A stretch of DNA of 64,000 bases. It comes from Edaphobacter aggregans DSM 19364 (GTDB taxonomy: Bacteria > Acidobacteriota > Terriglobia > Terriglobales > Acidobacteriaceae). The DNA is taken from assembly GCF_000745965.1 (NCBI RefSeq), contig NZ_JQKI01000016.1, positions 62,001-126,000 on the forward strand. Reading direction: 5' to 3'. The notes below the pieces were generated by a model. It did no database searches. It worked only from the letters and a program-made list of their open reading frames with translations, and was not told the DNA's origin. The position numbers and the translations under genes were made by a program. Shown piece after piece: positions 49,314 to 63,600 of the stretch (position 1 is its first letter; each line of letters opens with the position of its first letter).

Positions 49314-49559
49314 TCACGATCCAGCTTTCATCAGCTCAAGGTCGATGCGTGCATGAAGCCGATCACTGAACCCAACCGGCAGTTCAAAGACACGATCGTC
49401 GGCAGTGAGAATGATGATGTTTCGTGTCGAGTCCAGAATCGCTGAGCAGATCTCACAATGATCGAGGTGCTTCTGAACTATGTCGCGAGTCTCCTCCGGC
49501 AGATCGTCATCCAGATAGCCATAGATGTAGTTCCAGACGTGTTTGCAATCTATGACCAT
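49314..49559 (-). CDS. Soluble zinc-finger (ZAS-type) anti-sigma factor
   Basis: 81 codons including stop. It has the H-x3-C-x2-C motif of the zf-HC2/ZAS family (His31, Cys35, Cys38 in KHLDHCEIC), and no membrane span. It is therefore a cytosolic anti-sigma that could itself sense thiol oxidation or metal through the zinc site. The ATG at 49559 has GGAGGTGG upstream. It overlaps the sigma gene's stop by 10 bases, so translation is coupled. Function follows from this pairing plus the motif. A copper- or oxidant-triggered release is inference. Confidence 0.88.
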   Translation of the reverse strand: MVIDCKHVWNYIYGYLDDDLPEETRDIVQKHLDHCEICSAILDSTRNIIILTADDRVFELPVGFSDRLHARIDLELMKAGS

Positions 49560-50179
49560 GGGAGCCACCTCCGTTTCAATGTTTTGTTTATTGTTTTCAG
49601 CTGAGGGGCCAGTTGTTTTTGCAGCATCATACGGGCACGATGCAATCGGACCTTCACATTAGGAATGTTAATGCCCAGTGCCTCGGCAGTTTCATTGACA
49701 TTGAGCTCCTGGACATCCCGCAAAAGAAAGACCTCGCGATAAATGTCAGGAAGACTTTCAACTGCGTGTTGAATCAGTTGCCGTATTTCTGCTCGCTCCA
49801 CGACCTCTGACGGTATTTCGCGCCAATCGCGTAAGAGCGCCGGTGAAACACCACTGTTGTCGTCAGCAGGCCCATCCAGCGATTGCATTCGGATGACAGA
49901 CTGTCTGCGAAGTCGGCTGCGCGCTTCATTTAGGGTAATGCTGATAAGCCACGTGCTGAACTTCGCCTCCGCGCGAAACGTTGAGAGACTCCGGAAGGCT
50001 TTCACAAAGGCTTCCTGAGCAACATCCTCCGCATCGGCCTCATTCTTGATGTACGACAAAGCCATCAAATACACACTTCGTTCGTAGGGACGGATCAACT
50101 CGTGATAGAGCTGGGTGTCCCCGGCGAGGATCGCGGCAATCATTCCCGCCTCAGAACGAGTTGAAGTCTCAGCGGTCAT
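49550..50179 (-). CDS. ECF-type RNA polymerase sigma factor
   Basis: 209 aa. Region 2 (about 25-95) contains YERSVYLMALSYIKNEADAEDVAQEAFVKAFRSLSTFRAEAKFSTWLISITLNEARSRLR. Region 4 (about 140-195) contains LPDIYREVFLLRDVQELNVNETAEALGINIPNVKVRLHRARMML. The ATG at 50179 sits in an ATGA overlap with the DoxX stop, and the anti-sigma start lies inside its own 3' end. DoxX, sigma and anti-sigma thus form a tightly coupled operon. It is the probable reader of the shared TGTAAC-N16-(n)(C/G/T)TC promoters across 50-62 kb, including the one in front of its own operon. Confidence 0.95.
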   Translation of the reverse strand: MTAETSTRSEAGMIAAILAGDTQLYHELIRPYERSVYLMALSYIKNEADAEDVAQEAFVKAFRSLSTFRAEAKFSTWLISITLNEARSRLRRQSVIRMQSLDGPADDNSGVSPALLRDWREIPSEVVERAEIRQLIQHAVESLPDIYREVFLLRDVQELNVNETAEALGINIPNVKVRLHRARMMLQKQLAPQLKTINKTLKRRWLPWS

Positions 50180-50646
50180 CGCTGTTTTGTGACCTGCAGC
50201 CGTTTGGAAATAAGAGCATCGATCGAGAACAGGCCGGCCCCGAAGATCAGGATCATCAAAGATGCGAACAGGAAGGTATATGGATCGGCCACGTAGAACT
50301 TTTCTGGATCGGAGAAGATCGCGGTCAGCGCCTCCCGATCGGCGGTCCAGTATGCAACGAACATGTTGCAGGCCAGAAGGAAAGCGATCGGCCTGGAGAA
50401 GAGACCAAGCATCATCAGAATACCGCCAACAAACTCCAGCGACGCAATGAACGGCGCGTTGAAACCCGGAAACGGGATATTGAGGCTGGCGAAGAAGCCT
50501 GTGATCTTTGCCAGATGATGCAGCTTGCCCCATCCGGTCTGGGCAAACTGAAAGCCCCAGTAAAGCCGAACTGCGAGCAGCATCGGAGATTGAAGTGAAG
50601 CGAGTGCAGACACGGCACGATGATAGATGCGTAAGATTTGAGCCAT
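50176..50646 (-). CDS. DoxX family membrane protein of the sigma operon
   Basis: 156 aa with four membrane spans: VRLYWGFQFAQTGWGKLHHLAKITGFF, IASLEFVGGILMMLGLFSRPIAFLLACNMFVAYW and FLFASLMILIFGAGLFSIDAL. DoxX proteins accompany MNIO/DUF692 copper-peptide loci in many bacteria (the GigD/BufD position). Here it leads the operon with the sigma factor. Its stop overlaps the sigma start as ATGA. A candidate ECF promoter lies at 50706-50733, about 60-85 bases upstream. Confidence 0.92.
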   Translation of the reverse strand: MAQILRIYHRAVSALASLQSPMLLAVRLYWGFQFAQTGWGKLHHLAKITGFFASLNIPFPGFNAPFIASLEFVGGILMMLGLFSRPIAFLLACNMFVAYWTADREALTAIFSDPEKFYVADPYTFLFASLMILIFGAGLFSIDALISKRLQVTKQR

Positions 50647-50705
50647 ATACTCCTCATCTGGCGGCTGAGCCGCTTATTCATAGCGGGAATGCCTTATCGC
50701 ATCGT

Positions 50706-50733
50706 TAGAGTCACGGGGTACGCTCCGGTTACA
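50706..50733 (-). promoter_or_regulatory. Candidate ECF promoter of the DoxX-sigma-anti-sigma operon
   Basis: On the minus strand: TGTAAC (50733-50728), 16 bases, ACTCTA (50711-50706), then ACG. The -10 part is identical to that at 58355. It suggests autoregulation. Confidence 0.65.
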
Positions 50734-50754
50734 AACGATTTAAGAAGTTCTGGC

Positions 50755-50782
50755 TGTAACTCTTAAGCCAAACGCACGTCAG
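50755..50782 (+). promoter_or_regulatory. Candidate ECF promoter of the DUF1223 gene
   Basis: TGTAAC (50755-50760), 16 bases, CGTCAG (50777-50782). It lies back to back with the DoxX-operon promoter in the same 164-base gap, about 28 bases before the ATG at 50811. Confidence 0.65.
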
Positions 50783-50810
50783 ATGAACGCTGTCTGGCTG
50801 GAGGTTGATT

Positions 50811-51590
50811 ATGCATTTTCGTGTTCTGCTCACCGCTTCGTGTGCTCTTCTCGTCACTCATGCGGTACCGTCTTCAGCGTTTGCCCAGGATGTATCCGCG
50901 AGCAAACCTGCTTCCGTCGCAATCGTAGAGCTGTTCACTTCTGAGGGATGTTCGAGTTGTCCGCCCGCCGATGCATTGCTGCGTCAGATCAATCTGAAGC
51001 AGACAAACGCCGGGCAGCTCATCGTCGGCATCAGTGAGCATGTCACCTATTGGAACAATCTGGGATGGCGAGATCCTTATTCTTTGCCGGTCTTCACGGA
51101 AAGGCAGAGTGTCTACGCATCCCGCCTGTCCGCGGAGGGCTCCTACACGCCGCAGATGGTATTGAACGGGCGGGATCAGTTCGTAGGGAGCGATGGCGGT
51201 GCTCTTGAGCGCGCGCTCCTCGACGACACAAAGCGGACACATTTTGATCTGCGGATCATAACCTCGACGCTTTCAGCGGATGGCGTCGATGTGAAGTTTT
51301 CCTTCTCAGGCCACACCTCCAAGCCCCTGGATGTTGTCGCAGTCCTCACCGATGACGCGGACCGCTCGAATGTCCTGCGGGGAGAAAACTCGGGCAGACT
51401 CCTGCAGCATGTCTCGGTCGCTCGATCTCTGACCAAGGTTGCCACGGTGGCAGGAGATGCCGAAAAGTCCATCCATTTATCGCTCCCGGAGGGCTTTCAA
51501 GTGACGGCCGGTCCGGGACACCACCTCGTCCTTTTCGTACAGGAAGCGCATCAGGGGACGATTCTGGGAGCTGCCACGGCATCCCTCTGA
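50811..51590 (+). CDS. DUF1223 secreted thioredoxin-like protein
   Basis: 259 aa with a Sec signal peptide (VLLTASCALLVTHAVPSSAFAQ) and a DUF1223 domain. IVELFTSEGCSSCPPADALLRQ carries a CxxC pair (CSSC) in thioredoxin-like position, with ISEHVTYWNNLGWRDPYSLPVFTERQSVYA and YTPQMVLNGRDQFVGSDG as family blocks. A periplasmic redox or metal-binding role is likely but unproven. The ATG at 50811 has GGAGG 6 bases upstream. It sits between the sigma operon and the precursor-peptide operon, with its own ECF-type promoter. Confidence 0.92.
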   Translation: MHFRVLLTASCALLVTHAVPSSAFAQDVSASKPASVAIVELFTSEGCSSCPPADALLRQINLKQTNAGQLIVGISEHVTYWNNLGWRDPYSLPVFTERQSVYASRLSAEGSYTPQMVLNGRDQFVGSDGGALERALLDDTKRTHFDLRIITSTLSADGVDVKFSFSGHTSKPLDVVAVLTDDADRSNVLRGENSGRLLQHVSVARSLTKVATVAGDAEKSIHLSLPEGFQVTAGPGHHLVLFVQEAHQGTILGAATASL

Positions 51591-51620
51591 AGTATCCATG
51601 TCAAGATTCTTTTCTTCTCT

Positions 51621-51648
51621 TGTAACCAACCTTGCTTTCGCACCTCAA
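51621..51648 (+). promoter_or_regulatory. Candidate ECF promoter of the precursor-peptide/MNIO operon
   Basis: TGTAAC (51621-51626), 16 bases, CCTCAA (51643-51648). It leaves an mRNA leader of about 110 bases before the precursor ATG. Confidence 0.6.
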
Positions 51649-51767
51649 ACAGGCGGCATGGGAAGAGCAGCCTCCCAGGTCGTAGATGACGCTCTTCCCG
51701 GCCTCCGGGTCATGACCCCAAACCTCCAGGTGGAAACACCTGGCCCAACCGAAGAAAGGAACTCTTC

Positions 51768-52058
51768 ATGAAGACCAACACCGTAAGCAACCTCGCACTG
51801 GCCGCAGCTTTCGCGGGCCTCCTGGGCGGCACCGCTGTCCGTCTCAATGCTCAACCCCTCGCCGGCCACACGGGCATCTCAAGCGTCTCGCCGGCTATCA
51901 CTGGTGTGATGGCTGAAGATGGCCAGAAGGCGCTCCCCAAGCATGCCTGCAAGGGACAGAACGACTGCAAGGGACAGGGCGGCGGCGACAAGAAGCATGC
52001 TGGCAAGAACGACTGCAAAGGACAAGGTGCCTGCGCGACCGACGGCTCCAAGCACTAA
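51768..52058 (+). CDS. Bufferin-like precursor peptide (Cys/Lys/Gly/Gln repeats)
   Basis: A 96-aa exported peptide and the candidate substrate of the MNIO encoded next to it. A Sec signal (LALAAAFAGLLGGTAVRLNA, cleavage near residue 28) is followed by a short spacer. A low-complexity C-terminal region has four cysteines: Cys61, Cys67, Cys83 and Cys89, three of them in CKGQ units (ACKGQ, NDCKGQ, NDCKGQGAC). In the DUF692-associated RiPP families (bufferins, GigA/HvfA-like) such cysteines are modified to bind copper. The Gly/Lys-rich context HACKGQND is the commonly seen form. AAAGGAA lies upstream of the ATG. The first gene of a peptide-MNIO-DUF2063 run. Confidence 0.88.
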   Translation: MKTNTVSNLALAAAFAGLLGGTAVRLNAQPLAGHTGISSVSPAITGVMAEDGQKALPKHACKGQNDCKGQGGGDKKHAGKNDCKGQGACATDGSKH

Positions 52059-52138
52059 TCTCGACCCGCGTGGGAGGCTTGTGTATGCAAGCATGAGCCT
52101 CCTGCCGATTACGCCGCCTCACCCGGATCGGAGCTTCT

Positions 52139-53020
52139 ATGTCTGCCAATCGCTTCAACGGATATACCGACTGCGGAGTCGGTATTGGCCTGAGAGTTCC
52201 TCACTACGACCACATTCTCTCGAAGAAGCCGCTCGTGGACTGGTTTGAGATCATCTCGGAGAACTACATGGTCGACGGTGGGCGTCCGCTCAAGATTCTC
52301 GACCAGATCCTCGACCAGTATCGAGTGGTCCAACATGGGGTCTCCATGTACTTCGGTAGCGCACAGCCGTTGAACCGGGACCACCTCCGGCGCATCAAGG
52401 AGCTGACCAAGCGCACCAAGACTCCCTGGCTCTCCGATCATCTTTGCTGGGGCAGCGTGGACGGGCGCTATACCCACGACCTTCTGCCGCTGCCGTATAC
52501 ATTCGAGGCTGTGCGGGCGACAGCCGAACGGATTCGTATAGTGCAGGACTACCTCGAAATTCCTGTCGCTGTCGAAAACGTCAGCAGCTATGCGGCATAT
52601 AACGACTCCCAAATGACCGAGTGGGAGTTTCTGAATGAGGTGGTCCATACCGCCGATTGCGGCATCCTGCTCGACGTTAATAACATCTACGTGTCGTCGC
52701 AGAACCATGAGTTCGATCCCATGGACTACGTCAACAGCATCCCGGCGGAGCGCGTCGCGCAGATCCACATCGCTGGCCATTCGAAGTTCGAGAAGTACAT
52801 CCTCGACACGCACGATCACCCGGTTCTTGACCCTGTTTGGAAACTGTACGAGCGCGCCATCGAGCGTTCCGGACCGACAGCCACTCTGCTGGAGTGGGAT
52901 GACAACATTCCCTCCTTCGACGAGGTACATGCCGAAGCGCTCAAGGCGAATCGCTTCCTCCTTGCGGCCGAGGTGGCGACGAGTAGCGGTGTTGAAGTTC
53001 TCGAGGAGGCCCATGTATGA
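52139..53020 (+). CDS. DUF692 multinuclear iron-dependent oxidase (MNIO), bufferin maturase
   Basis: A 293-aa TIM-barrel iron enzyme of the MbnB/TglH/BufB family, which oxidatively modifies cysteines of precursor peptides. All expected metal-ligand positions are visible: His66 (QHGVS), Asp100-His101 (LSDHLCWG), Glu146-Asn147 (AVENVSS), Asp179/Asn181 (LLDVNNIY), His210 and His214 (IHIAGH), Asp223/His225/His227 (DTHDH) and Glu252/Asp254 (LEWDD). GGAG precedes the ATG by 6 bases. It is 80 bases after the peptide gene and overlaps the DUF2063 gene by ATGA. Product chemistry (thiooxazole versus oxazolone/thioamide) cannot be read from sequence. Confidence 0.94.
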   Translation: MSANRFNGYTDCGVGIGLRVPHYDHILSKKPLVDWFEIISENYMVDGGRPLKILDQILDQYRVVQHGVSMYFGSAQPLNRDHLRRIKELTKRTKTPWLSDHLCWGSVDGRYTHDLLPLPYTFEAVRATAERIRIVQDYLEIPVAVENVSSYAAYNDSQMTEWEFLNEVVHTADCGILLDVNNIYVSSQNHEFDPMDYVNSIPAERVAQIHIAGHSKFEKYILDTHDHPVLDPVWKLYERAIERSGPTATLLEWDDNIPSFDEVHAEALKANRFLLAAEVATSSGVEVLEEAHV

Positions 53021-53919
53021 ACCTGCTTGAGCTTCAGCGTCGCATGGCAGAGGACGTGCGCCGGCCACTCACTGCCGATTACGAGATGCAAAGGACGACG
53101 GATGATGGCACTCCGACCTCAGACATTGCCGCAAGCTATATCAGCCCCAATAATCGGCTCACGTCATTCGAACGTCTGGAGATCTACAACCGCCAGTACT
53201 GGTTCCGCCTGATCACCGCAGTCTCTGAGGACTATCTGACGCTTAACGCTGTACTTGGCACGAAGCGATTCGATGCTCTGATCCTTGCTTATCTTGGTGA
53301 GCACCCATCGGCCTCATGGACCTTGCGCGACCTGGGTGCAAAGCTCCCAGCATTCCTGACAGCCCATCCGGAGTTCAGCGGTCGCCGCCATCGCCTTGCA
53401 GTCGACGTTGCAAATCTGGAGTTGGCGTATGTCGATGCGTTTGATGGAAAGCACCTCGATCCTTTGACGACGGAAGAGGCGCAGGTCATCGGACCGGACT
53501 CGCGGCTTTCCCTGCAACCGCACTTGCAACTTCTCGAACTAGCCTACCCGGTGGACAATCTGGTGTTGGCCGTGAAGAAGGAAACGCCCGAGGTCGACAT
53601 CGTAAGCAGTGCAGCCATGCAACGCGATGCTCGAGATCGCGAGAAGATACCGCCGATAAAAAGAGAGGCAGTGTTTCTCGCTGTGCATCGCTACGATGAC
53701 TCTGTCTACTACCGCCGACTGGAAAAAGAAACGTTCCTCTTGTTGAGAGGACTACGGGCAGGCGCGTCCGTTGCGGTGGCCGTTTCTCAGGCCTTTGCGA
53801 AATCGAAGCTGACACCGGACGCACAGGCCACTCTGTTGCAGGAGAGCTTCGCGCATGCTTCGCAACTCGGATGGCTATGCCCACTAGCCAACATGGAACT
53901 GCCAGACCTAGTGATGTAG
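53017..53919 (+). CDS. DUF2063 partner protein of the MNIO (BufC-like)
   Basis: A 300-aa protein with an N-terminal DUF2063 domain (about 1-100): LLELQRRMAEDVRRPLTADY, ASYISPNNRLTSFERLEIYNRQYWFRLITAVSEDYLTLNAVLG and FLTAHPEFSGRRHRLAVDVANLELAYVDAFD. The family is annotated as putative DNA-binding, but beside DUF692 enzymes it serves as the partner that recruits the precursor. The C-terminal half resembles the RiPP-recognition-type domain of such partners (inference). Its start overlaps the MNIO stop by 4 bases, so the two are translationally coupled. Confidence 0.9.
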   Translation: MNLLELQRRMAEDVRRPLTADYEMQRTTDDGTPTSDIAASYISPNNRLTSFERLEIYNRQYWFRLITAVSEDYLTLNAVLGTKRFDALILAYLGEHPSASWTLRDLGAKLPAFLTAHPEFSGRRHRLAVDVANLELAYVDAFDGKHLDPLTTEEAQVIGPDSRLSLQPHLQLLELAYPVDNLVLAVKKETPEVDIVSSAAMQRDARDREKIPPIKREAVFLAVHRYDDSVYYRRLEKETFLLLRGLRAGASVAVAVSQAFAKSKLTPDAQATLLQESFAHASQLGWLCPLANMELPDLVM

Positions 53920-53937
53920 GCCGGGAAGGAAGCGTTC

Positions 53938-54365
53938 ATGTCCAAAGAGCAAGATCGTGGAGCGTGAATGTATCTCGCGCATACGGGCTCTTGCGAGTCA
54001 CCCTTGGACTGAACATCTGACTGCATGGAGTCGTACGCTGGATAAAGGGCCTTCACAGTTTCCCGAATCGCTGGTTCCTATGTTCGCGAAGACCCCTCTG
54101 CCGCCATGGAGCGTGTATGACTTCTTATACGTCCTTCCGATCTTTGAAGCCCTTGTGGGTGGGGCCGTTCTGTTTGGGCTGGAGACTCGACGCGCGTTGC
54201 GCGCGGCTCGATCCTCATGCTGATCCCATGTTTGGATCGGCGTTGCGCGAAGGCTGGCCAACCGTAAGCATTCAACTGGCGTAATCCGTGGTCTATTGCA
54301 TTCTGATCGCCGGGGTGCAGTTCGATGGCTTTGGGATCGACCGTCTGAAAAGATCTTCTCCCTAA
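53938..54365 (+). pseudogene. Decayed DoxX gene at the end of the MNIO operon
   Basis: Pieces of a DoxX protein lie in three frames. YGLLRVTLGLNI then a TGA at 54018 and LHGVVRWIKGLHSF come first, then (shift near 54060) ESLVPMFAKTPLPPWSVYDFLYVLPIFEALVGGAVLFGLETR. After a second shift near 54200 come MLIPMFGSALREGWPTVSIQLA, a TAA at 54282, and SVVYCILIAGVQFDGFGIDRLK to 54365. This is the BufD/GigD slot of the operon. The function may have been taken over by the DoxX of the sigma operon. Confidence 0.8.
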
Positions 54366-54373
54366 GCAAATCC

Positions 54374-54401
54374 TGTAACCATTTCGGAGTTCCTTTGTCT
54401 C
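54374..54401 (+). promoter_or_regulatory. Candidate ECF promoter of the redoxin gene
   Basis: TGTAAC (54374-54379), 16 bases, TGTCTC (54396-54401). It ends just before an ATG at 54402, which supports the later start at 54429. Confidence 0.65.
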
Positions 54402-54428
54402 ATGAGCATCTTGGTAAGGAGTGCCCGT

Positions 54429-55007
54429 ATGCAGGTCTATAGCTTCAATCGATTTCATAAGCTGTTTCGCGTCTTCGTGGCTCTATCGGCAGTGTTCTTC
54501 GGAACAGCTTTGTTAGCCGAGACCCCCGCTGTCGGGGCCAAGGCCCCCGACTTTACCCTTTCGACCCCTACGGGCAAAACCGTACAGATGTCCAAGGAAC
54601 TGCATGGGCACGATTTGGTACTGGTTGTGCTACGAGGTTTCCCCGGCTATCAGTGCCCGTACTGCGTCAAACAGGTTCACGATTTCGTGGATCATGCAGC
54701 CGACTTTGCGGCGAAGAACGTAAAGGTTCTCCTTGTCTACCCCGGACCTCCCGCGGACCTGGATCAGCACGCCAAAGACTTTCTTGCGAAGCAGTCGGAG
54801 TTGCCCTCCAACATCGTTCTGGTTACCGATCCGGATTACACGATGACCAATTCGTACGGCCTACGTTGGGATGCCCCGCATGAGACGGCCTATCCGTCGA
54901 CGTTCATTCTCGACAAAAATCAGACAGTTCTTTTCGAGAAGATCAGTCACAGTCACGGGGATCGCTTGTCCGCACAGGATGCCCTCGACCAGTTCGCGAC
55001 GAAGTAG
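54429..55007 (+). CDS. Exported redoxin/peroxiredoxin-like protein
   Basis: 192 aa with a signal peptide (LFRVFVALSAVFFGTALLAE) and an AhpC/TSA-redoxin domain: VGAKAPDFTLSTPTGKTVQMSKEL, VVLRGFPGYQCPYCVKQVHDFV with a CPYC pair, and ETAYPSTFILDKNQTVLFEKIS. The ATG at 54429 has AAGGAG 7 bases upstream, and the earlier ATG at 54402 lies against the promoter. It probably reduces peroxides or acts as a periplasmic thiol protein. The DsbD/ScsB-like gene follows by 63 bases and could supply its electrons. Confidence 0.9.
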   Translation: MQVYSFNRFHKLFRVFVALSAVFFGTALLAETPAVGAKAPDFTLSTPTGKTVQMSKELHGHDLVLVVLRGFPGYQCPYCVKQVHDFVDHAADFAAKNVKVLLVYPGPPADLDQHAKDFLAKQSELPSNIVLVTDPDYTMTNSYGLRWDAPHETAYPSTFILDKNQTVLFEKISHSHGDRLSAQDALDQFATK

Positions 55008-55070
55008 TCGCTCCTGGCTGCGTCCGGATTCCGGCGCAGCCTCTTTATTCTTCGTTCCCCAGGTCATGTC

Positions 55071-57140
55071 ATGCGAACCCTCCGCTACCATCTTCTGTCG
55101 TTTCTCGCGCTTCTGATGCTGTCCGTATCCGCCGTTGCTCAGATCCATGAAGTGGGAACGGGGATTCCAGGACCAATTCAGGCTCCACATCTGACCGCCG
55201 AGTTGATCGCCGACTCTGGCACGATCTCGCCGGGCGGCACGAGTCATGTCGCACTGTCCTTGACGCTTGAGCCCGGCTGGCACGTCTACTGGGTCTATGC
55301 CGGCGACTCAGGCGAGGCTCCGAGCGTCGCGTGGTCCGCGCCGCAAGGAATCGTGCTGGGTCCGATGCAATATCCCGCGCCCTCCCGGCTTCCTCTCGGG
55401 CCGTTGATGGACTACGGATATGAGGGAACGGCAATCTTTCCCTTTAGCCTGACGGCATCGCAGCAACTCCCTCTCGGCACGACGTTGCTGAAAGCGCATG
55501 TGCAGTGGCTGGTGTGCCGGGAGATATGCCTCCCAGGCAAGGCTTTTCTTGGGCTGAATCTGAAGGTCGCACCGACTGCGCCTTCGGCAACGAATGCACT
55601 GATCGACGCGGCGCTTCATGCTGAGCCGCTTCCGTTGCCGAGTTCCGTCAAAGTTCACGTGATTGCCACCCGCAGCCTTCTCACAGTGGACGTCGAAACC
55701 GGCCACAGGGAGACAGCACTTGAATACTATCCTCTCGACGACGACTCGATTCGTAACGCAGCTGAGCAGAAGGTCGAGCCCACCCCGCAAGGGGCGAAGC
55801 TCGTCACTGAACGTGCGGAGACCTCGGACACCCTTCCCAAGCAGATCAAAGGACTTCTGAAGCTGAGTGGAGGCCGATCTTATACCTTCGATGTTCCTGT
55901 CGGAGCACTCGTAGCGCAGACAGCCTCAAGCGGCGAGCCCGGACTCTTCTTCGCCATTGTTCTCGCATTCGCTGGTGGCATCATCCTGAATCTGATGCCA
56001 TGTGTCTTCCCGGTACTCTTCTTGAAGGCTCTCTCGCTGGTCAACAGCGCAAACGAAAGCACCTCGCGGCAGCGGCGTCATGGAATGGCCTATACAGCCG
56101 GGATACTTTTCTCTTTCTGGGTCATCGTCGCCGTCCTGTTGACACTGCGCCTCGTCGGGAAGCAAGCGGGCTGGGGCTTCCAGCTTCAGTCCCCAGGCTT
56201 TGTCGTCGCCATGACCTTCCTGCTTTTCTTTATGGGACTCTCGCTGGCCGGGATGTTCGATCTTGGCCTGACACTGACAAGCGCCGGAGACAGCCTCACG
56301 CGCAAGGATGGCTACACCGGTTCCTTCTTTACCGGAGTACTGGCCACCATCGTTGCGACTCCCTGCACAGCGCCGCTCATGGGAGCGGCGATTGGCTTCG
56401 CCCTCTCTCAGAGTGCGATTGTGACGTTTACGGTATTCACGGCCCTCGCGCTCGGTCTGGCCGTGCCGTACCTGCTTCTGACCCTTGTGCCCGGCTGGGC
56501 GAACAAGCTGCCGCGGCCTGGCCGCTGGATGGAGACGTTGAAACAGCTCACCGCCATCCCTCTCTTTTTGACGACAGTTTGGCTTATCTGGGTATACGGA
56601 CGCTTGAGTGGAGGCGCGCCGGGCGATAGCTCTGACCATATCGCCCGCCTGCTGGTTGGGCTCGTCGTCCTCGCGATCGCAGGCTGGATTCTTGCGCGTT
56701 GGCCCGCGCGCCGATGGGCCTACCTCGCGGCACTACTCATCGCGGCTGCGGGTTTCGCCGTTCCACTTTCAGGCAGTCATTCTGACCAGCTGCAATGGGG
56801 GCCCTTTTCCAATGCAGCGCTCGCGGCGGCCCAGAGTCAGGGCAAGCCGGTCTTCGTTGACTTCACCGCGGCGTGGTGCCTTTCCTGCCAGGTCAATGAG
56901 AAGGCCGTGCTGCAGGACAAGAGCGTGGAGCAAGAGCTTCTTCGGCGACATTACGTTCTGCTACGCGCTGATTGGACTCGCTATGATCCGGAGATTACAA
57001 GCGCACTGAACAAAGTCGGTCGTAGCGGTGTCCCAACCTACGTCGTGTTCTCCGGCCACGCGGATGGCGATAGCCACGTTCTGCCGGAGCTGCTGACGCG
57101 GGGCATCGTGCTCGATGCCATTCGGCAAAACGGGACGTAG
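55071..57140 (+). CDS. DsbD/ScsB-like thiol-disulfide transmembrane reductase
   Basis: A 689-aa membrane protein that would carry electrons from cytosolic thioredoxin to the periplasm. A signal peptide is followed by an N-terminal DsbD-like domain (about 30-180) with its own Cys pair (WLVCREICLPG). A transmembrane core (about 285-550) has the reactive cysteines of LNLMPCVFPVLFLKALSL and VATPCTAPLMGAAIGFAL. A C-terminal thioredoxin domain has VDFTAAWCLSCQVNEKAVL (WCLSC). This three-part layout matches ScsB/DsbD, families tied to copper tolerance and envelope thiol repair. It sits directly after the redoxin, and is likely in the same transcript. Confidence 0.93.
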   Translation: MRTLRYHLLSFLALLMLSVSAVAQIHEVGTGIPGPIQAPHLTAELIADSGTISPGGTSHVALSLTLEPGWHVYWVYAGDSGEAPSVAWSAPQGIVLGPMQYPAPSRLPLGPLMDYGYEGTAIFPFSLTASQQLPLGTTLLKAHVQWLVCREICLPGKAFLGLNLKVAPTAPSATNALIDAALHAEPLPLPSSVKVHVIATRSLLTVDVETGHRETALEYYPLDDDSIRNAAEQKVEPTPQGAKLVTERAETSDTLPKQIKGLLKLSGGRSYTFDVPVGALVAQTASSGEPGLFFAIVLAFAGGIILNLMPCVFPVLFLKALSLVNSANESTSRQRRHGMAYTAGILFSFWVIVAVLLTLRLVGKQAGWGFQLQSPGFVVAMTFLLFFMGLSLAGMFDLGLTLTSAGDSLTRKDGYTGSFFTGVLATIVATPCTAPLMGAAIGFALSQSAIVTFTVFTALALGLAVPYLLLTLVPGWANKLPRPGRWMETLKQLTAIPLFLTTVWLIWVYGRLSGGAPGDSSDHIARLLVGLVVLAIAGWILARWPARRWAYLAALLIAAAGFAVPLSGSHSDQLQWGPFSNAALAAAQSQGKPVFVDFTAAWCLSCQVNEKAVLQDKSVEQELLRRHYVLLRADWTRYDPEITSALNKVGRSGVPTYVVFSGHADGDSHVLPELLTRGIVLDAIRQNGT

Positions 57141-57151
57141 CAATAATCGTG

Positions 57152-57799
57152 ATGGACTCACCGCATCCGGAAAGGCAGGGCCTCAACATGATCCAGGCAG
57201 GCAACACTGAGGGCATCTCCGACATCATTCGATTCGTCCTTGAGATCGACAAACTCAAGGGAGTCCTGCGTAAGGTCAAGCCTACGGGAGAAGACCGCTA
57301 CGAAAACACCGCCGAACATAGCTGGCAGATCGCATTATTTGCACTCTCCCTCGAACAGGTCGTGGAGATATCAGTCGATGTCAACCGGGTGATTGCGATG
57401 CTTCTCGTGCATGATCTCGGGGAGATCGATGCAGGAGATAAATTCGTCTTCGCGCAGGATGGTTGGGAAGACCGCAAGGTTGTCGAGCTTCGCGCCGTCG
57501 AGCGAATCTGTGATATCGCCCCATTAAAGGTGGCCGATTGGCTGATCACGTTATGGAAAGAGTTCGATGGGGGCGGAACTTCGGAAGCCCGTTTCGCAAA
57601 AGCCATCGACCGATGCATGCCGGTCTTGCTGAATCTGAGCCATCAAGGCGGAAGCTGGCTGGAGAACGGTGTGACCTATGAGCGCGTCGTCGGACGAGTC
57701 GGCCCAGAGATCGAGAACGGCTGTCCTGAACTCTGGACCTACATGAAGGAGAAATTGGAAGAAGGTCGCCGCAAAGGATTCTTTGCGGCGACCTCGTAA
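57152..57799 (+). CDS. HD-domain phosphohydrolase (YfbR/HDDC2-like)
   Basis: A metal-dependent HD-domain protein (215 aa) resembling 5'-deoxynucleotidases. The ligands appear as ENTAEHSWQIALFALSL (His), LLVHDLGEIDAGD (the HD pair and second Asp) and the late Asp of FAKAIDRCMPVLLNLSHQG. The start is uncertain: ATG at 57152, or ATG at 57188 with AAAGGCAGGG upstream. It follows the DsbD-like gene by 11 bases, so it may be in the same transcript. A link to copper or thiol stress is not evident. Confidence 0.85.
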   Translation: MDSPHPERQGLNMIQAGNTEGISDIIRFVLEIDKLKGVLRKVKPTGEDRYENTAEHSWQIALFALSLEQVVEISVDVNRVIAMLLVHDLGEIDAGDKFVFAQDGWEDRKVVELRAVERICDIAPLKVADWLITLWKEFDGGGTSEARFAKAIDRCMPVLLNLSHQGGSWLENGVTYERVVGRVGPEIENGCPELWTYMKEKLEEGRRKGFFAATS

Positions 57800-57934
57800 C
57801 GGTTTTACCGGCCCTTCACCCCTCGTCTTCGAAAAGTGCGTCGCGTGAGTGATCGTCGGCTCTGCGCGGATCGTCCCAAGTTCAAATGCTGCTTTATCGA
57901 ACGCCCACTCTAGCCAAGGACTTAGATCTTTGAT

Positions 57935-58231
57935 TCAGAGCTTTTCCGCGAGGATGTCGACCATCTGAATCTGCGGCGCAGAGACGAATAGCTCTTCGGC
58001 ACGAGCAAAGAGAGCTTTTGCCACCTCACCGGTTACATGTGCATTACGTCCTTCGTCATCCTTGAAGGTGTCAAAGATGCCAAACGTCGCCGACCCAATC
58101 TTGAATGCGAACCAAGCCGTCGTGCCAACCTCAGCTGCTACGAGGGGAGTCGCCGAACTAAGAAATTGTTCGACGTCTTCCTCCTTACCTGTACGTGCCT
58201 GCAATGTCGCCAAAATACCAACTTTATTCAT
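57935..58231 (-). CDS. Antibiotic-biosynthesis-monooxygenase (quinol monooxygenase)-like protein
   Basis: A 98-aa ferredoxin-like-fold ABM-domain protein: VGILATLQARTGKEEDVEQFLSSATPLV, TTAWFAFKIGSATFGIFDTFKDDEGRNAHVTGEVAKALFARAEELF and MVDILAEKL. Small ABM proteins of this type oxidise quinols or act in heme/ROS handling; the exact substrate is unknown. A candidate ECF promoter lies at 58355-58382, giving a leader of about 120 bases. A decayed copy of the same gene is at 62222-62524. Confidence 0.9.
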   Translation of the reverse strand: MNKVGILATLQARTGKEEDVEQFLSSATPLVAAEVGTTAWFAFKIGSATFGIFDTFKDDEGRNAHVTGEVAKALFARAEELFVSAPQIQMVDILAEKL

Positions 58232-58634
58232 CTGATTTTTCCCTCGCGATTGGTTAAGCCGCGCGCCTCAGTTTCGGCGCGCAGGGTCGTTAGTTAGATC
58301 GCAATCGGTCGAGCGCGACCGAAATCGGGCAGACGCGAATCCGACCTCGACCGTTAGAGTTGAGATCCGGTAAAAGGTTACAGCGACCAATGCGACAACC
58401 ACTCAATTGATGCGGGAAAGAGATGCACCGCTGGGATTAAGCTGTCATGAAACGTCTAGGATGTTGTTACATAGGACGGATGATGTCTCCCTTATGCGGA
58501 GAGAGCGTTTCCAGTCTCTTAGAAAAGTTACAGCGCTCATCTACTTTCTACTGGTGAATAACACGCCCTAAGCCGGTGTTCGAGCGCAAATCTAACCTCT
58601 TAAGGGATCAAGATGCCTGGTCACAAGTGCCATT
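58232..58634. other. About 400-base intergenic region
   Basis: No gene seen. It holds a hairpin GCGCGCC/GGCGCGC near 58259-58280 and the ABM promoter. Two further TGTAAC words on the minus strand (near 58470 and 58525) lack a matching -10 at 16 bases. Confidence 0.5.
58355..58382 (-). promoter_or_regulatory. Candidate ECF promoter of the ABM gene
   Basis: Minus strand: TGTAAC (58382-58377), 16 bases, ACTCTA (58360-58355), then ACG. The 9-base -10 region ACTCTAACG is identical to that of the DoxX-sigma operon. Confidence 0.7.
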
Positions 58635-58683
58635 AAAAAGAGGGGGTTGTTCAAACCCAACGATGTCGCGTTTGAACAACCCC
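58635..58683 (-). terminator. Strong terminator of the secreted-protein gene
   Basis: The arms GGGGTTGTTCAAAC and GTTTGAACAACCCC (14 bp, 13-base loop) are followed on the minus strand by CTCTTTTTAAT. It lies 20 bases after the stop of the gene at 58704. Confidence 0.88.
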
Positions 58684-58703
58684 ACAAGGAACAGTCCTGT
58701 TGA

Positions 58704-60122
58704 TTAATCCAATCTTTGGACGATTGGGCAATTGATGGAGAAGCCAGAACTGCCGAACGGTGCTCCGCCTGGACCGGTCAACAGACCATCCTGGACGAAG
58801 GTCAATATCTGAAACTCCTCGCGAAGTTGACCCCGGTATCCCTGGTTGATAGCGTCCTGAGTCCACTCGTAAAGGTTGGCATCCCACGCCGGGCTGTAGT
58901 CCAGTGCGATCGTGGGAATACCGCCGAGTGTGTTGTTTGGCCTGAATCCATCCGCGAAGTCTGCAGAAAGACCCTGGCGCAGAGGGTTGTTGCAGCTTCC
59001 GGCCTCCGGACCGTTCGTTGCAATAAAGATGCGCTCGATCGGGCTGAAGGCACCGTCGTCGTGGCCCAAAAGAAGGTTAGCCATCAAAGGTGCGTAGGTG
59101 TTGTGTTCGATCGCCGCCGCCAGAGGGATGCTTGCGTCCATGGAGATGTACCAAACGGGTCTGCCGAAGCTGAAGCCGTTAACCAGGTTCAGCGTCACCG
59201 TCATCTTGACTGTATCGATGGCAGCCACCGCATCGTGGACCTTCGAATAATCAACATTTCCGTTGGGGAAATTGATCTCATTCTCGTCGACATTGTATGC
59301 AATCATTGGAGCGTTATAGACCACGTTGCCAGCATTCGTGATGGTTACAAACGGACTATAGTTCTTGTCTCCAATTTCCCCCGGAGCGAACGACTTCGGC
59401 GGAAATTCCTGTCCAGCGGGCCCCGGCACGATGTTCCGTTGGGGACTGAAATCCACAGTTCCTGCATCGAAGACAATGTTTCCGTTTGCATCGAGTGTGC
59501 CGGTTCTGGCAGCATTCTCCGCGAACCCCAGCTTGGCCGAAAAGTTCAGCCCGAGTTCGTTGGCGATTCCCTGGTCGGAAACGTCTGTGAGAATGTACCA
59601 AACGGTTTTGCCCCTAACAGTACCTTTGTAAAGCGGCAGGGTGATAGTCCCGTTCAAAGCATCGACCGTGCCTGAGTTCAAGAGTTGAACAGGTCCGACT
59701 AAGCTCGGATTAACGGTGGATGGAGGTGGCCCAAAGTATGACAGACCAACAGCGGCGCCGGTAGAGGCGGGCGCAGGGAATAGATTACATCCAGGCCCAG
59801 GGCTCTGTCGTGCAGTTCCGCCAAAGCCCTGCTCCGAGTTGAAGCCAGTCGAAGCGCCAGTGCCCGACGTAGTGGCAGGTGTCGTTGCCGGAGTCGTTGC
59901 CACTGGACGTTTTGCATTGCTGTGCACGGCCAGCACCTCAGGAGACACGGGTGGCTTAGCTGCCGCAGTTTTTTGCGCGAAGGCCGTTGATGGTACGAGA
60001 CCACTCATCATCGTCGCACTGGCCAAGATGAGTAGCTTGCTGGAGGAGAATAAGCGCGACCGCAGAGCGGCCACATTCAGGTCATTCCCGAGAGGGAAAG
60101 ACATACGAGGATTGGTAGCCAT
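58704..60122 (-). CDS. Secreted protein of unknown function under the ECF-type promoter
   Basis: 472 aa that I cannot assign to a described function. A signal peptide (KLLILASATMMSGLVPSTAFA, about 29-49) is followed by a Thr/Ala/Pro-rich linker. Two similar beta-rich segments come next, each with an L-NGTITLPLYKG or LNLVNGFSFGRP element leading to a VWYI(L/S)xD motif (KTVWYILTDVSDQGIANELG near 174-193 and RPVWYISMDASIPLAAAIE near 330-348). This suggests an internal duplication. Four cysteines include GPGCNLFPAP, GSCNNPL and the C-terminal NCPIV. A probable ECF promoter at 60205 and a strong terminator make it a single-gene unit. Confidence 0.75.
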   Translation of the reverse strand: MATNPRMSFPLGNDLNVAALRSRLFSSSKLLILASATMMSGLVPSTAFAQKTAAAKPPVSPEVLAVHSNAKRPVATTPATTPATTSGTGASTGFNSEQGFGGTARQSPGPGCNLFPAPASTGAAVGLSYFGPPPSTVNPSLVGPVQLLNSGTVDALNGTITLPLYKGTVRGKTVWYILTDVSDQGIANELGLNFSAKLGFAENAARTGTLDANGNIVFDAGTVDFSPQRNIVPGPAGQEFPPKSFAPGEIGDKNYSPFVTITNAGNVVYNAPMIAYNVDENEINFPNGNVDYSKVHDAVAAIDTVKMTVTLNLVNGFSFGRPVWYISMDASIPLAAAIEHNTYAPLMANLLLGHDDGAFSPIERIFIATNGPEAGSCNNPLRQGLSADFADGFRPNNTLGGIPTIALDYSPAWDANLYEWTQDAINQGYRGQLREEFQILTFVQDGLLTGPGGAPFGSSGFSINCPIVQRLD

Positions 60123-60204
60123 TGTTGGACTCCTTCGATTTGAGAGGCTTACACGATGAGGTGTTGAGTGAGTGAATGTCTCTACGCCTAAATCGTGTGC
60201 CAGT

Positions 60205-60232
60205 GAGAATGACGGGCGCCTGAATAGTTACA
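60205..60232 (-). promoter_or_regulatory. Candidate ECF promoter of the secreted-protein gene
   Basis: Minus strand: TGTAAC (60232-60227), 16 bases, ATTCTC (60210-60205). It is a weaker -10 than at 58355 but at the same spacing, and about 83 bases from the start codon. Confidence 0.5.
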
Positions 60233-60310
60233 ATAAATCCGCTCATATTCGCACTTTTTATACTTTCACTAAGCCGACTCTGAGAGGTGTAGTCCAATCA
60301 GCAAGACAGT

Positions 60311-60338
60311 TGTAACTTATCTGGAGTTAAAATCTCTA
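60311..60338 (+). promoter_or_regulatory. Candidate ECF promoter facing a gene-less stretch
   Basis: TGTAAC (60311-60316), 16 bases, TCTCTA (60333-60338). Only a 31-codon open frame from the ATG at 60361 follows, which I do not recognise. Confidence 0.4.
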
Positions 60339-60975
60339 ATAACGGGGACGTGTGCTAAACATGCGACTACCAACCTTATTAGCGGCACACTCATCATTCG
60401 AGGACGCCTCTCGACATGCGCTTGTTTGGGACATTGGCAGCGGCATCACTTATTAAATGACCGATGTTCGTTTCCAGAGGTGTTGAGCGCAACACCCAAC
60501 TATCCGGTCATCTCCACAAGCCCCCGGCGCCAAAGTGCAAACCATCACGATCGAATCTAGATTGGCTTGTGACCTGAAGGAATGGTCGGGCTTCACGAGA
60601 TTGCCTGACAGTAAGAATGAACGGAGTGACGAAAGCTACAACAATAGCTGAAAAAGTGTCTAACGCAGATCACACATGATATTTTCCGCGATGTGCTTCC
60701 GTCTGCTGCGTGCGGAGCGCCCAATCTTAATTGGCTAAAGCGTACTCACCCTTGCGGGATTACTGCCGACCGGAGCATCGTGGAGAGTTTGCCTGTTGAC
60801 GTACGTCGCGGTCATCACAAAGAAGAAGCCTCCACCCCGCTAATCTGGAAGTACGCGTAACCTTCGCATCGAAGAATTATTTGGCGGCGAAGAAGTCGCT
60901 CGCGTATGCGGAGCCGTGCAGCAGCAAAGGATATGAACGCTTGTTGTCGATGTTTCCTGAGCATCAGCCCGTGAG
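60339..60975. other. About 640-base stretch without an intact gene
   Basis: Contains only short open frames. A piece at about 60740-60840 (LAGLLPTGASWRVCLLTYVAVIT) looks like a membrane-protein tail but stops at once. The base composition is less G+C-rich than the core region. Probably decayed DNA. Confidence 0.4.
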
Positions 60976-61908
60976 TTACTCTGACGGGCTGATCTCCGAA
61001 TGTGAGAAGCGAAAGACATCGGGACGAGCGTAGTGACCTGTCACGTCAAGAGCCATACTTTCCCGGTCAATCTTCGCGAGATCCAAATCTGCGATGATGA
61101 GATCCTCGCGATCGAAAACAGGCTCCACAACGTAGGTCGAGTCGGGCGCAATGATACAACTTCCTCCGCGTTCTACCCATTTGTCTGTGACCTCATGAGG
61201 CAGTTGGCGCGGAACTTCGGCGGCAGGCATCATGAGACCAACGGACATCACGAAGCATCGGCCTTCGAAGGCATAGTGACGACTCGCGAGCTGTGCCATC
61301 TCGTTCACGGTAGGCCAAACAGCGACATGTATGTGTTCTCCAGCCTGGTGCATAGCCATTCGCGCCAGGGGCATCCAATGCTCCCAGCAAATCAGTCCCC
61401 CTACACGTGCTTGACCGATATCAACTGACTTCAGCCCGCGGCCATCACCGGCCCCCCACACAAGACGTTCTGTGAATGTGGGTACGAGTTTGGGATGATG
61501 GTTTGCCAGGCGTCCATCGGGTGAAAACGTAAGAAGGCTGTTATAGAGCGTCTTAGCACCAGGTCCCCGCTCAATCCGTTCATTGATCCCGATGACAACG
61601 CCCATCTGGAGGTCGCGTGCAATTTCCGACAACTGAGCGACTTCGGGGCCATCGATGGAGATACTGTTCTCTCGAAGTTCGGCAAAGATCTCTTTCGTCG
61701 GCGCGTGATTCCAAAGCGCGGCGCCGGGGCAGATGTCGAGCCAAACGGGATATCCAGGAATCCAGGTCTCACCGAACGCAATGAAACTGGCTCCCTGGCC
61801 GGAGGCCCTTCGAATGAGTTCGAGAGCCTTTTCGAGGCTTGCGCTCTTGTTGTGATATACAGGTCCCGCTTGGGCGATCGCAACACGAATTACAGAAGAA
61901 GAATTCAT
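60976..61908 (-). CDS. Nitrilase-type carbon-nitrogen hydrolase
   Basis: 310 aa of the nitrilase branch of the C-N hydrolase superfamily, converting nitriles to acids and ammonia. The catalytic triad is Glu47 (FGETWIPGYPVWLD), Lys140 (NHHPKLVPTFTERLVWG) and Cys174 (GGLICWEHWMPLAR). The CWEH motif is characteristic of true nitrilases rather than amidases. The ATG at 61908 (MNSSSVIRVAIAQAGPVY) matches the family start; an in-frame extension to 62052 has no family likeness. The hairpin TCAGCCCGT/ACGGGCTGA overlaps its stop. A fragment of a second nitrilase lies at 63291. Confidence 0.92.
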   Translation of the reverse strand: MNSSSVIRVAIAQAGPVYHNKSASLEKALELIRRASGQGASFIAFGETWIPGYPVWLDICPGAALWNHAPTKEIFAELRENSISIDGPEVAQLSEIARDLQMGVVIGINERIERGPGAKTLYNSLLTFSPDGRLANHHPKLVPTFTERLVWGAGDGRGLKSVDIGQARVGGLICWEHWMPLARMAMHQAGEHIHVAVWPTVNEMAQLASRHYAFEGRCFVMSVGLMMPAAEVPRQLPHEVTDKWVERGGSCIIAPDSTYVVEPVFDREDLIIADLDLAKIDRESMALDVTGHYARPDVFRFSHSEISPSE

Positions 61909-62066
61909 TGTCACAATTTCACCAGGATGTAACATTAGACCTCGCGACCGAAGTAAGGTGTCCCAGCCAATGGGGCACGAGGAATCCGGCGCCGCGTCCA
62001 GTGTATCGGAGATAGAGAGCGCGCTGCCCTCTGGCGGGATGAACTTACTCATTTGTGAGCGGTGCC

Positions 62067-62094
62067 TGTAACCTTCAAGGCGCTTCTGCTTCTA
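62067..62094 (+). promoter_or_regulatory. Candidate ECF promoter before the ABM pseudogene
   Basis: TGTAAC (62067-62072), 16 bases, CTTCTA (62089-62094). It lies 128 bases before the ABM pseudogene start, close to the promoter-gene distance of the intact ABM copy. Confidence 0.5.
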
Positions 62095-62221
62095 ATGGTC
62101 AGTGTGACCCCTCGCAGGAAATAACATCTATGGGCTCAAATCGGCTGATCGACTTCCATCAAGGACGCATTCGAGGCGAGTCAAACGATGTGGTTCGCAC
62201 AACCAACGAAGGAGACATTAC

Positions 62222-62524
62222 GTGAACAAAAGTCGGAATACTAGCAACGTTGCAGGCCCGTCCCGGTAAAGAGGCAGATGTGGAGGAGTTCTTGTGGTCA
62301 ACTGGGCCACTGGTAGAGGCAGAAACAGTGACAACAACGTGGTTCGCGTTTCAAAGTCGCGACCGCAACGTTTGGCATATTCGATACCTTCAGGGATGAG
62401 GATGGAAGAAACGCTCACTTCAAGGGTGAGATAGCCAAGGCACTCTTCGCGCGCGATGAAGAGTTGTTTGTCGTTCATCCATCCCGAAATCAAGCCCGCG
62501 GATATCGTTGCCGAGAAACTCTAG
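62222..62524 (+). pseudogene. Frameshifted copy of the ABM monooxygenase gene
   Basis: A GTG opens NK, then an extra A in GAACAAAAGTC shifts the frame. VGILATLQARPGKEADVEEFL, TTTWFAF, then (shift) KVATATFGIFDTFRDEDGRNAHFKGEIAKALFARDEELFVVHPS, then (shift) PEIKPADIVAEKL and a TAG follow. It aligns along its whole length with the intact gene at 57935-58231, so it is a paralogue with at least three indels. Confidence 0.85.
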
Positions 62525-62772: not shown

Positions 62773-63126
62773 ACGAAAGTTCAAAACCCCATTCTGAAGG
62801 AAGTATCCGACCGAAAGGTATCTGAGATACGAGACAGGTTAACAATTACCGTTAGGGAGATCGCCCCGGAACAGCGATGGACCCTACACGGCCGATTGAC
62901 GGACTACTCGGTAGCTGAAGTGCTTTCGAATTGGTATGCGTCTAAGGATCCGGAGTCAGTGGGCCGTCGCGTTATTGACCTCGACGGCGTTTCCGTCATT
63001 GATAGAAGTGGCGAGCGAGTTCTCTCAATGCTGATTCAGGATGGGGCCAGATTCGGTGGAATCTATGCAAAATATCTTCTTGTAGCTTTGCAGGAGCGCG
63101 CGGAATCGAACGCTCAACTCAATTGA
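62773..63126 (+). CDS. STAS-like domain protein with no standard start codon
   Basis: The open frame reads RLTITVREIAPEQRWTLHGRLTDYSVAEVLSNWY, RRVIDLDGVSVIDRSGERVLSMLIQDGARF and YAKYLLVALQERAESNAQLN. This matches the STAS pattern of W-x-L-x-G-x-L...DL-x-x-V-x-x-ID-x-x-G and suggests an anti-sigma-antagonist or MlaB-like role. A strong AAGGAGG lies at 62758, but at the right distance there is only ACG (62773). No ATG, GTG or TTG is found in frame until 62896. It is translated from a rare start or silenced by an ATG-to-ACG change. Confidence 0.6.
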   Translation, partial: TKVQNPILKEVSDRKVSEIRDRLTITVREIAPEQRWTLHGRLTDYSVAEVLSNWYASKDPESVGRRVIDLDGVSVIDRSGERVLSMLIQDGARFGGIYAKYLLVALQERAESNAQLN

Positions 63127-63290
63127 TCGCTGTCATGAGAGGCACGAGCGATTATGAGTCGACGCCACCAAAGTGTTCCAGCCATAGATGAATTTCGAGC
63201 ACGTTTCCACTCCATTGGCTGCACACACCGCCGCTGAGCTTTAGCCGGCCGCATAAAGCCCATCAAACACCTCAAGCTCGTCCGGACAGT

Positions 63291-63370
63291 AACCTTCGTG
63301 GGCTCGAGATTCCAAAGCGCGGCGCTCGGACAGATGTCGAGCCAAACGGGATATCCGGGAACCTTCACAT
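63291..63370 (-). pseudogene. Nitrilase gene fragment
   Basis: The minus strand encodes VPGYPVWLDICPSAALWNLEPTKV, almost identical to residues 50-72 of the nitrilase at 60976-61908. Blocks of 17 and 26 identical bases are shared. Nothing before or after it is nitrilase-like, so it is a remnant. Confidence 0.8.
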
Positions 63371-63449
63371 CACCCCCAGCGGCGATGGCAAGTATCTCTT
63401 CAACCTCCAGTCCGGGGCCGGAGTCATCGGCGTCTTCACCATCAATTTC
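63366..63449 (+). pseudogene. Beta-propeller (lactonase-like) gene fragment
   Basis: The plus strand reads HITPSGDGKYLFNLQSGAGV then IGVFTINF, one blade of a YncE/6-phosphogluconolactonase-like propeller (TPSGKYLYVxxSGSGTIGVF). It abuts the nitrilase fragment on the other strand and continues into sequence with no likeness. A remnant. Confidence 0.5.
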
Positions 63450-63600
63450 CGATGGAACTCTGAACCAACTTGGAGACATCGAGGGACTTCCCACCAATGC
63501 CCGGCTTCAACGGAATTGCTGCTCTCTAACGGAATCCTTGTGACACTATGTGAAGTAGGACAGAGCACTTCGTGGAATAAGCTCGTCGGCTACTGAGAAG

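Follow-up and report, generated by a model that had tools for sequence, protein, structure and literature searches.

Conserved promoter-like sites around an extracytoplasmic function sigma factor gene and a bufferin-like operon of Edaphobacter aggregans

Which regulator would read the promoter-like sites that recur around a sigma factor gene of Edaphobacter aggregans DSM 19364, and which genes would it control? The locus lies in a stretch of 64,000 nucleotides (positions 62001-126000 of contig NZ_JQKI01000016.1, here C11; the whole stretch is called the window) from a genome of 8.18 Mb in 345 contigs. An initial annotation of this DNA had listed eight sites combining TGTAAC with a TC-containing block 16 bases further on, minus-strand sites being given by their low end, and had read them as promoters of an extracytoplasmic function (ECF) sigma factor. 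Judging from the sequence and its conservation, we consider it very probable that these sites are promoters of the ECF sigma factor encoded at 49550-50173, with the gene of a soluble zinc-type anti-sigma factor just behind. The predicted targets include an operon for a bufferin-like peptide; bufferins, described only recently, are modified peptides that handle copper.

Promoter-like sites in the window and the genome

All eight sites were found in place with the letters described (Table 1). TGTAAC occurs 17 times in the window and is followed by TC at the expected offset in nine cases, namely the eight listed sites and 58037(-). In an offset control, TC followed TGTAAC in 9/17 cases at offset 24 and in 0-3/17 at the 23 other offsets between 8 and 31, an excess with a binomial P of ~9e-7. 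A strict form of the motif, TGTAAC-N16-NNTCNNAY, which was written after viewing the window sites and the relatives' loci, fits 8/8 listed sites. It does not fit 58037(-), which also lies inside the ABM gene; this match was rejected as a promoter site and taken as chance.

Seven of the sites point toward the start of a gene or broken gene. The distances, estimated in the annotation at about 30-130 bases, measured 27 to ~127 when counted from the last base of the -10 hexamer: 59 for DoxX, 119 for the bufferin-like precursor, 123 for ABM and 82 for DUF7482, as well as, read from the sequence, 28 to the ATG at 50811 (DUF1223), 27 to the ATG at 54429 (redoxin) and ~127 to the start of the broken second ABM copy. 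This copy has thus retained an upstream site at a distance similar to that of the intact gene. The sigma gene itself stands in the order DoxX-sigma-anti-sigma, with one site in front of the three genes.

The eighth site, at 60311(+), is an orphan that diverges from the DUF7482 site. An orphan opposite the DUF7482 promoter site was seen in three island copies (window 60311-60340 (+), L141 3885-3914 (-) and L148 908-937 (+)). The counterpart on contig C239 of the same genome is 79% identical over 43 bases, and contig C392 of the relative G018 also has the divergent pair; at neither place was an open reading frame of 60 amino acids found. The orphan site may serve a small RNA or a target that has decayed.

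Across the genome, 11 of the 88 matches to the loose pattern (TGTAAC-N18-TC) fall within 14.7 kb of C11, where 0.14 would be expected (Poisson P 8e-18). Of the 19 strict matches, ten lie in the 14.7 kb around the sigma gene, comprising the eight sites and two past the window end, one at C11:126282(-) in front of an AhpC-like gene with an apparently frameshifted start and one at C11:127362(-) before an exported peptidase-like gene. Another 5/19 adjoin further copies of sigma or regulon genes: one on C26 before a DoxX-sigma-anti-sigma operon, three on C239 near another sigma copy (one each in front of DoxX and DUF7482, and an orphan) and one on C148 before redoxin-DsbD. Since DUF7482 breaks off at residue 162 where C239 ends, and C148 starts at residue 164, the two contigs are probably one broken locus. 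The remaining four strict matches (C1 twice, C49 and C184) overlap open frames of at least 100 codons and were set aside as background; no homologs of window proteins were found in the four stretches fetched around them.

Conservation in relatives and co-variation with the sigma factor

For comparison we used the best 80 of the sigma loci listed for relatives, divided into 26 close and 54 further loci, as well as 31 whole genomes (our own and 30 relatives), 19 of which form the genus. Cultured relatives in which the sigma factor occurs include Acidipila rosea, Terriglobus roseus and Granulicella mallensis. Motif counts were controlled with the reversed pattern, and a genome was called sigma-bearing if it gave a sigma match with E below 1e-60. 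With the unrefined pattern of the annotation, TC stood at offset 24 in 45/135 TGTAAC occurrences of the close loci (3-17 at other offsets) and in 35/158 of the further loci (3-22 at other offsets).

When every hexamer within 200 bases upstream was ranked de novo, with no motif assumed, TGTAAC was the top word for orthologs of DoxX (18/23, 0.5 expected), the precursor (13/19, 0.3 expected) and DUF1223 (7/13, 0.2 expected). In 60 pooled upstream regions, redoxin included, it was present in 42 (0.8 expected), with CTCTAA among the top words. Every sense TGTAAC upstream of DoxX, sigma, precursor, DUF1223 and redoxin orthologs was followed by TC (52/52), at a spacing of 16 (41 sites) or 17 (11 sites). 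Accordingly counted as TGTAAC-N16/17-nnTC, the motif preceded DoxX in 18/23, the precursor in 14/19, DUF1223 in 6/14 and redoxin in 4/5 orthologs, and DUF7482 copies on C239 and G018:C392 likewise have upstream sites. As an operon-internal control, the pattern was absent upstream of the genes for the MNIO maturase (0/19) and its DUF2063 partner (0/18); outside the five target classes we found one TC site upstream of an anti-sigma gene (1/56) and one TGTAAC without TC upstream of MNIO. A site directly upstream of the sigma gene was seen in only 9/78 cases, which is explained by the many sigma genes that stand second behind DoxX and by the 38 that belong to a distant class with Thr at residue 175. 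The regulon proposed in the annotation thus held for the sigma operon itself, DUF1223, the precursor operon and redoxin, and its secreted protein, DUF7482, also keeps its sites; for ABM it found no such backing, as neither of the two orthologs examined has an upstream site.

Column frequencies, unconditioned on the -10 element, gave C after TGTAAC in 0.79 and, in the -10 block, T in 0.81, C in 0.79, A in 0.65 and A in 0.81. The -10 element is better written NNTCNNAY, and some relatives have a spacer of 17 instead of 16. The reversed strict pattern did not occur upstream of any DoxX, precursor, DUF1223 or redoxin ortholog.

The sigma factor was found in 13/31 genomes, all within the one genus. 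For the 12 sigma-bearing relatives we counted at least 22 strict sites no more than 5 kb from a sigma gene, where 0.24 would be expected. Three of these genomes (G014, G015, G016) overlap in sequence with loci of the 80-locus scan, and the letters of the G007 site match those at L051; these four genomes supply 6/22 sites, and the others 16. The maturase gene bufB (NF050167) was present in 11/31 genomes, all among the 13 sigma-bearing ones, a co-occurrence with a hypergeometric P of 9e-7 over the 31 genomes and 0.001 within the genus, with relatedness ignored. Together with the conserved sites, this restriction of bufB agrees with the ECF-promoter interpretation. In G003, sigma and DUF1223 share one contig, while DoxX, the peptidase and the bufferin operon are on another; sites on both contigs point to action in trans.

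Residue 175 of the sigma factor aligns with Thr171 of Bacillus subtilis SigW, and SigW Thr171 and Escherichia coli sigma-E Ser172 are described as touching base -34 (PMC6713349). We compared this residue among sigma loci at 55% identity or more (44 after one duplicate was dropped). Val175 was found in all 26 of these loci with a nearby TGTAAC site and Met175 in all five with TGTTAC; the base changed is -33, the neighbour of -34. The variant TGTTAC-N16-nnTCTAAC stands upstream of the precursor in L053, L062, L063, L064 and on C23 of our own genome, where TGTTAC-N18-TCTAAY occurs exactly once, upstream of the C23 bufferin operon. The Val and Met sets also differ at eight further alignment columns, and all Met loci may belong to a single clade, so the split probably reflects one event. 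The co-variation, drawn from one clade, suggests a tie between sigma factor and promoter as well as insulated paralogs. The 38 Thr-class homologs (of 78 sigma orthologs) share no upstream hexamer that looks ECF-like among their top words. Below 55% identity, TGTAAC was found near sigma in 6/42 loci (two Val class, four Thr class) and TGTTAC in one Thr-class locus, so the residue code is not confirmed at that distance.

Two genes recur near these loci as side observations. Sites with a spacer of 17 at L149 4519 (-) and L142 4882 (-) precede a gene that we take, from its letters, to be AhpD/carboxymuconolactone decarboxylase-like, a possible further target. A small membrane protein gene at the far end of the island (L031 19351-19944) recurs near the anti-sigma gene in L148, L151, L152 and L154.

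Candidate circuit, alternatives and known systems

The sigma factor matched Sigma70_r2 and Sigma70_r4_2 above cut-off, i.e. regions 2 and 4 only, as for ECF (group IV) factors, and scored 102 bits against the sigma70-ECF superfamily (cut-off 42.9); its nearest solved structure is SigW (E 1.1e-24). For the anti-sigma factor, zf-HC2 was the only Pfam match. It contains H-x3-C-x2-C with an N-terminal Cys or His, the motif of RsrA/RsiW-like zinc anti-sigma (ZAS) factors, and C8, H34, C38 and C41 are invariant in 57/57 aligned sequences. Among solved anti-sigma factors only RsiW (E 0.01) and RsrA (E 0.49) were matched, both weakly, and the RsrA NCBIfam equivalog gave 37.9 bits, below its cut-off of 62.5.

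We propose that the zinc anti-sigma factor would hold the sigma factor and that stress would disturb the zinc-cysteine anti-sigma, setting the sigma factor free. The signal would most likely be thiol-reactive (excess copper, another metal or an oxidant), as suggested by the predicted targets bufferin, redoxin and DsbD and by the ECF systems already known to govern MNIO operons. The freed sigma factor would bring RNA polymerase to sites of the form TGTAAC(C)-N16-NNTCNNAY, turning on its own DoxX-sigma-anti-sigma operon. The local regulon would comprise the bufferin-like peptide with MNIO maturase and partner, DUF1223, redoxin-DsbD, ABM and DUF7482 and, past the window end, the AhpC-like and exported peptidase-like genes.

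Several results weigh against this proposal. The whole-genome scan suggested in the annotation failed in its simplest form, with 88 loose matches versus 152 for the reversed control and 19 strict matches versus 25. A genome-wide excess was thus rejected as proof; the motif is informative only locally, and the signal is local and conserved. Strict matches numbered 137 in ~67.8 Mb of the 13 sigma-bearing genomes versus 33 in ~62.6 Mb of the 18 others, but the difference in density is largely one of composition because the reversed controls differ too (194 versus 95) and the contrast nearly vanishes within the genus (matches/reversed 137/194 in the 13 sigma-bearing genomes versus 22/39 in the six without sigma). 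The strict form was found in only 10/23 DoxX, 8/19 precursor, 4/13 DUF1223 and 4/5 redoxin upstream regions of relatives; opposite-strand matches occurred in 3, 2, 5 and 2 of these regions, respectively, and several of the ortholog gene pairs are divergent. Furthermore, 13/44 close sigma loci show neither -35 form, the relatives owe their promoters partly to common descent, and the orphan at 60311(+) is followed by no noteworthy open frame and gave no Rfam match. The missing genome-wide enrichment would fit chance matches picked by eye, yet the local clustering of the loose pattern, the offset control and the conservation in relatives leave that explanation with next to no credibility. Chance is excluded for the sites as a group, while single sites (ABM, the orphan) could still be chance.

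Conserved two-block DNA by itself does not distinguish a promoter from an operator, so the sites might bind a repressor or another DNA-binding protein. We regard this as very improbable in view of the fixed orientation toward genes, the spacing of 16 or 17, the lack of a palindrome, the ECF-like blocks and the co-variation with a sigma residue. A somewhat stronger competitor, still unlikely in our estimate, is that another sigma factor mainly reads the sites, the local one having another or a shared regulon. The genome holds 39 matches to the window sigma factor at E 0.001, and the paralogs on C26 (78% identity) and C239 (74%) both carry Val175 and have TGTAAC sites of their own. On the other hand, the densest cluster of sites surrounds the window gene, the sites are kept in relatives with a single sigma copy, and contigs C26 and C239 might be contaminating sequence, the assembly being rated 7.21% contaminated. 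A single rpoB copy argues against a second full genome, which does not settle the origin of C26 and C239/C148. Sigma copies number four in our genome (C11, C26, C239, C23), four in G018 (C392, C360, C77, C230), one in 11 genomes of the genus and none in six; both four-copy genomes are large, and both assemblies are rated ~7% contaminated.

With the local sigma factor as the preferred reader of the sites, the circuit resembles several known systems. Caulobacter SigF (promoter GTAACC-N16-CGAA, PMC3511200) and Sinorhizobium meliloti RpoE7 (PMC6180224) are reported as ECF sigma factors controlling MNIO operons. As in these ECF16 systems, the operons contain MNIO (DUF692), DUF2063, DoxX and a precursor, and the -35 element contains GTAAC with a 16-base spacer. 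However, the anti-sigma factor of the SigF system is NrsF, a six-helix membrane protein (DUF1109), whereas here it is a soluble zf-HC2 protein of 84 amino acids; the precursor there is DUF2282 and here it is not; and the -10 element is CGAA there and NNTCNNAY here. Lacking NrsF/DUF1109 and CGAA, the system was not filed in ECF16 despite its SigF-NrsF-like working. Haemophilus RpoE2-HrsE and Neisseria SigE likewise pair an ECF sigma factor with a small anti-sigma factor over a DoxX-UPF0276-DUF2063 cluster in envelope redox repair (PMC7907618), but the RpoE2-HrsE regulon centres on msrAB, and the portions of that paper at hand name no DUF1223 or DUF7482 targets. The Lys and Arg described as reading C-31 and G-35 in SigW (PMC6713349) are retained in our alignment, whereas SigW Thr171 and A at -34 are replaced by Val175 and T.

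Regulon genes, genomic setting and significance

The features of the window are collected in Table 1. The maturase scored above the BufB cut-off and, as in Buf2-type clusters, is accompanied by a DUF2063 partner and DoxX. The window precursor, with four Cys and 21.8 of the 60 bits required for BufA2, differs from BufA2 precursors, which carry 6 or 12 Cys; among 20 aligned precursors, seven have six Cys and 13 have four. The genes for precursor, MNIO, DUF2063, DoxX, sigma and anti-sigma are consecutive on one strand at L053, at L055 and at the C23 paralog; six Cys are present in the precursors of L053 and L055. A bufferin survey associates sigma factors with Buf1 and not with Buf2 clusters (PMC12452194, section 14); clusters of the L053/L055/C23 type would be exceptions if their precursors count as Buf2. 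In the open-licence literature we found no paper joining DUF1223 with a sigma factor. Among the matches listed, PMC12452194 alone concerns bufferins for bufferin plus anti-sigma, and bufferin plus Acidobacter gave apparent hits to 'buffering' only. On acidobacterial sigma factors, the available passages of PMC7074687 name SigW only.

Table 1. Promoter-like sites and genes of the window (window coordinates)
Feature	Position	Strand	-10 element	Context or basis
Promoter-like site	50704..50733	-	ACTCTAAC	before DoxX-sigma-anti-sigma
Promoter-like site	50755..50784	+	CGTCAGAT	before DUF1223
Promoter-like site	51621..51650	+	CCTCAAAC	before precursor-MNIO-DUF2063 operon
Promoter-like site	54374..54403	+	TGTCTCAT	before redoxin-DsbD-HD
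Promoter-like site	58353..58382	-	ACTCTAAC	before ABM
Promoter-like site	60203..60232	-	ATTCTCAC	before DUF7482
Promoter-like site	60311..60340	+	TCTCTAAT	divergent from DUF7482 site; no target gene found
Promoter-like site	62067..62096	+	CTTCTAAT	before broken second ABM copy (~62222 on)
Tyrosine recombinase (phage-type integrase) gene	47201..48409			edge of low-GC part
Soluble zinc-type anti-sigma gene (84 aa)	49314..49568	-		zf-HC2
ECF sigma factor gene (207 aa)	49550..50173	-		Sigma70_r2 and r4_2
DoxX-family membrane protein gene	50176..50646	-		Pfam DoxX; HvfX-like, below cut-off
DUF1223 gene	50811..51590	+		Pfam DUF1223
Bufferin-like precursor gene, four Cys after leader	51768..52058	+		NCBIfam BufA2 21.8 bits, cut-off 60; alignment
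MNIO bufferin maturase gene (BufB)	52139..53020	+		NF050167 354.8 bits, cut-off 310
DUF2063 partner protein gene	53017..53919	+		Pfam DUF2063
Exported redoxin gene	54429..55007	+		AhpC-TSA/Redoxin; start chosen by reading
DsbD/ScsB-type thiol:disulfide protein gene	55071..57140	+		DsbD_N, DsbD_TM, thioredoxin
HD-domain protein gene	57149..57799	+		Pfam HD_3
Small protein gene (ABM in the initial annotation)	57935..58231	-		no Pfam or NCBIfam match
Exported DUF7482 protein gene	58704..60122	-		Pfam DUF7482
Carbon-nitrogen hydrolase gene	60976..62052	-		
Broken second ABM copy	~62222..62520	+		
Hydrolase gene fragment	63114..63497	-		66% identical to the gene 1 kb away

The guanine-plus-cytosine (GC) content of the window is 0.60-0.66 in the first 38 kb but only 0.52-0.58 between 40 and 64 kb, with the integrase gene at the edge of the low-GC part; no tRNA genes were found in the 64 kb. 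In view of the GC drop and the integrase, the sigma regulon may sit on an acquired island. The hydrolase gene and its fragment represent duplication and decay within the low-GC region.

Tentatively, and with slightly less than even confidence, we suggest that an acidobacterial ECF sigma family outside ECF16 controls bufferin clusters, its paralogs being separated by a single-base difference in the -35 element (TGTAAC/TGTTAC) that is matched by a single residue of the recognition helix (Val175/Met175). If this is true, the genome of E. aggregans contains one insulated sigma copy served by a single promoter of its own, next to islands that use a shared promoter code. A sigma factor with a different type of anti-sigma factor, in or next to the Buf2-like clusters of many Acidobacteriaceae, would come with a readable promoter code and give a testable regulon for an abundant, little-studied soil phylum, and the Val/TGTAAC and Met/TGTTAC sets would form a natural pair for studying how ECF promoter specificity changes.

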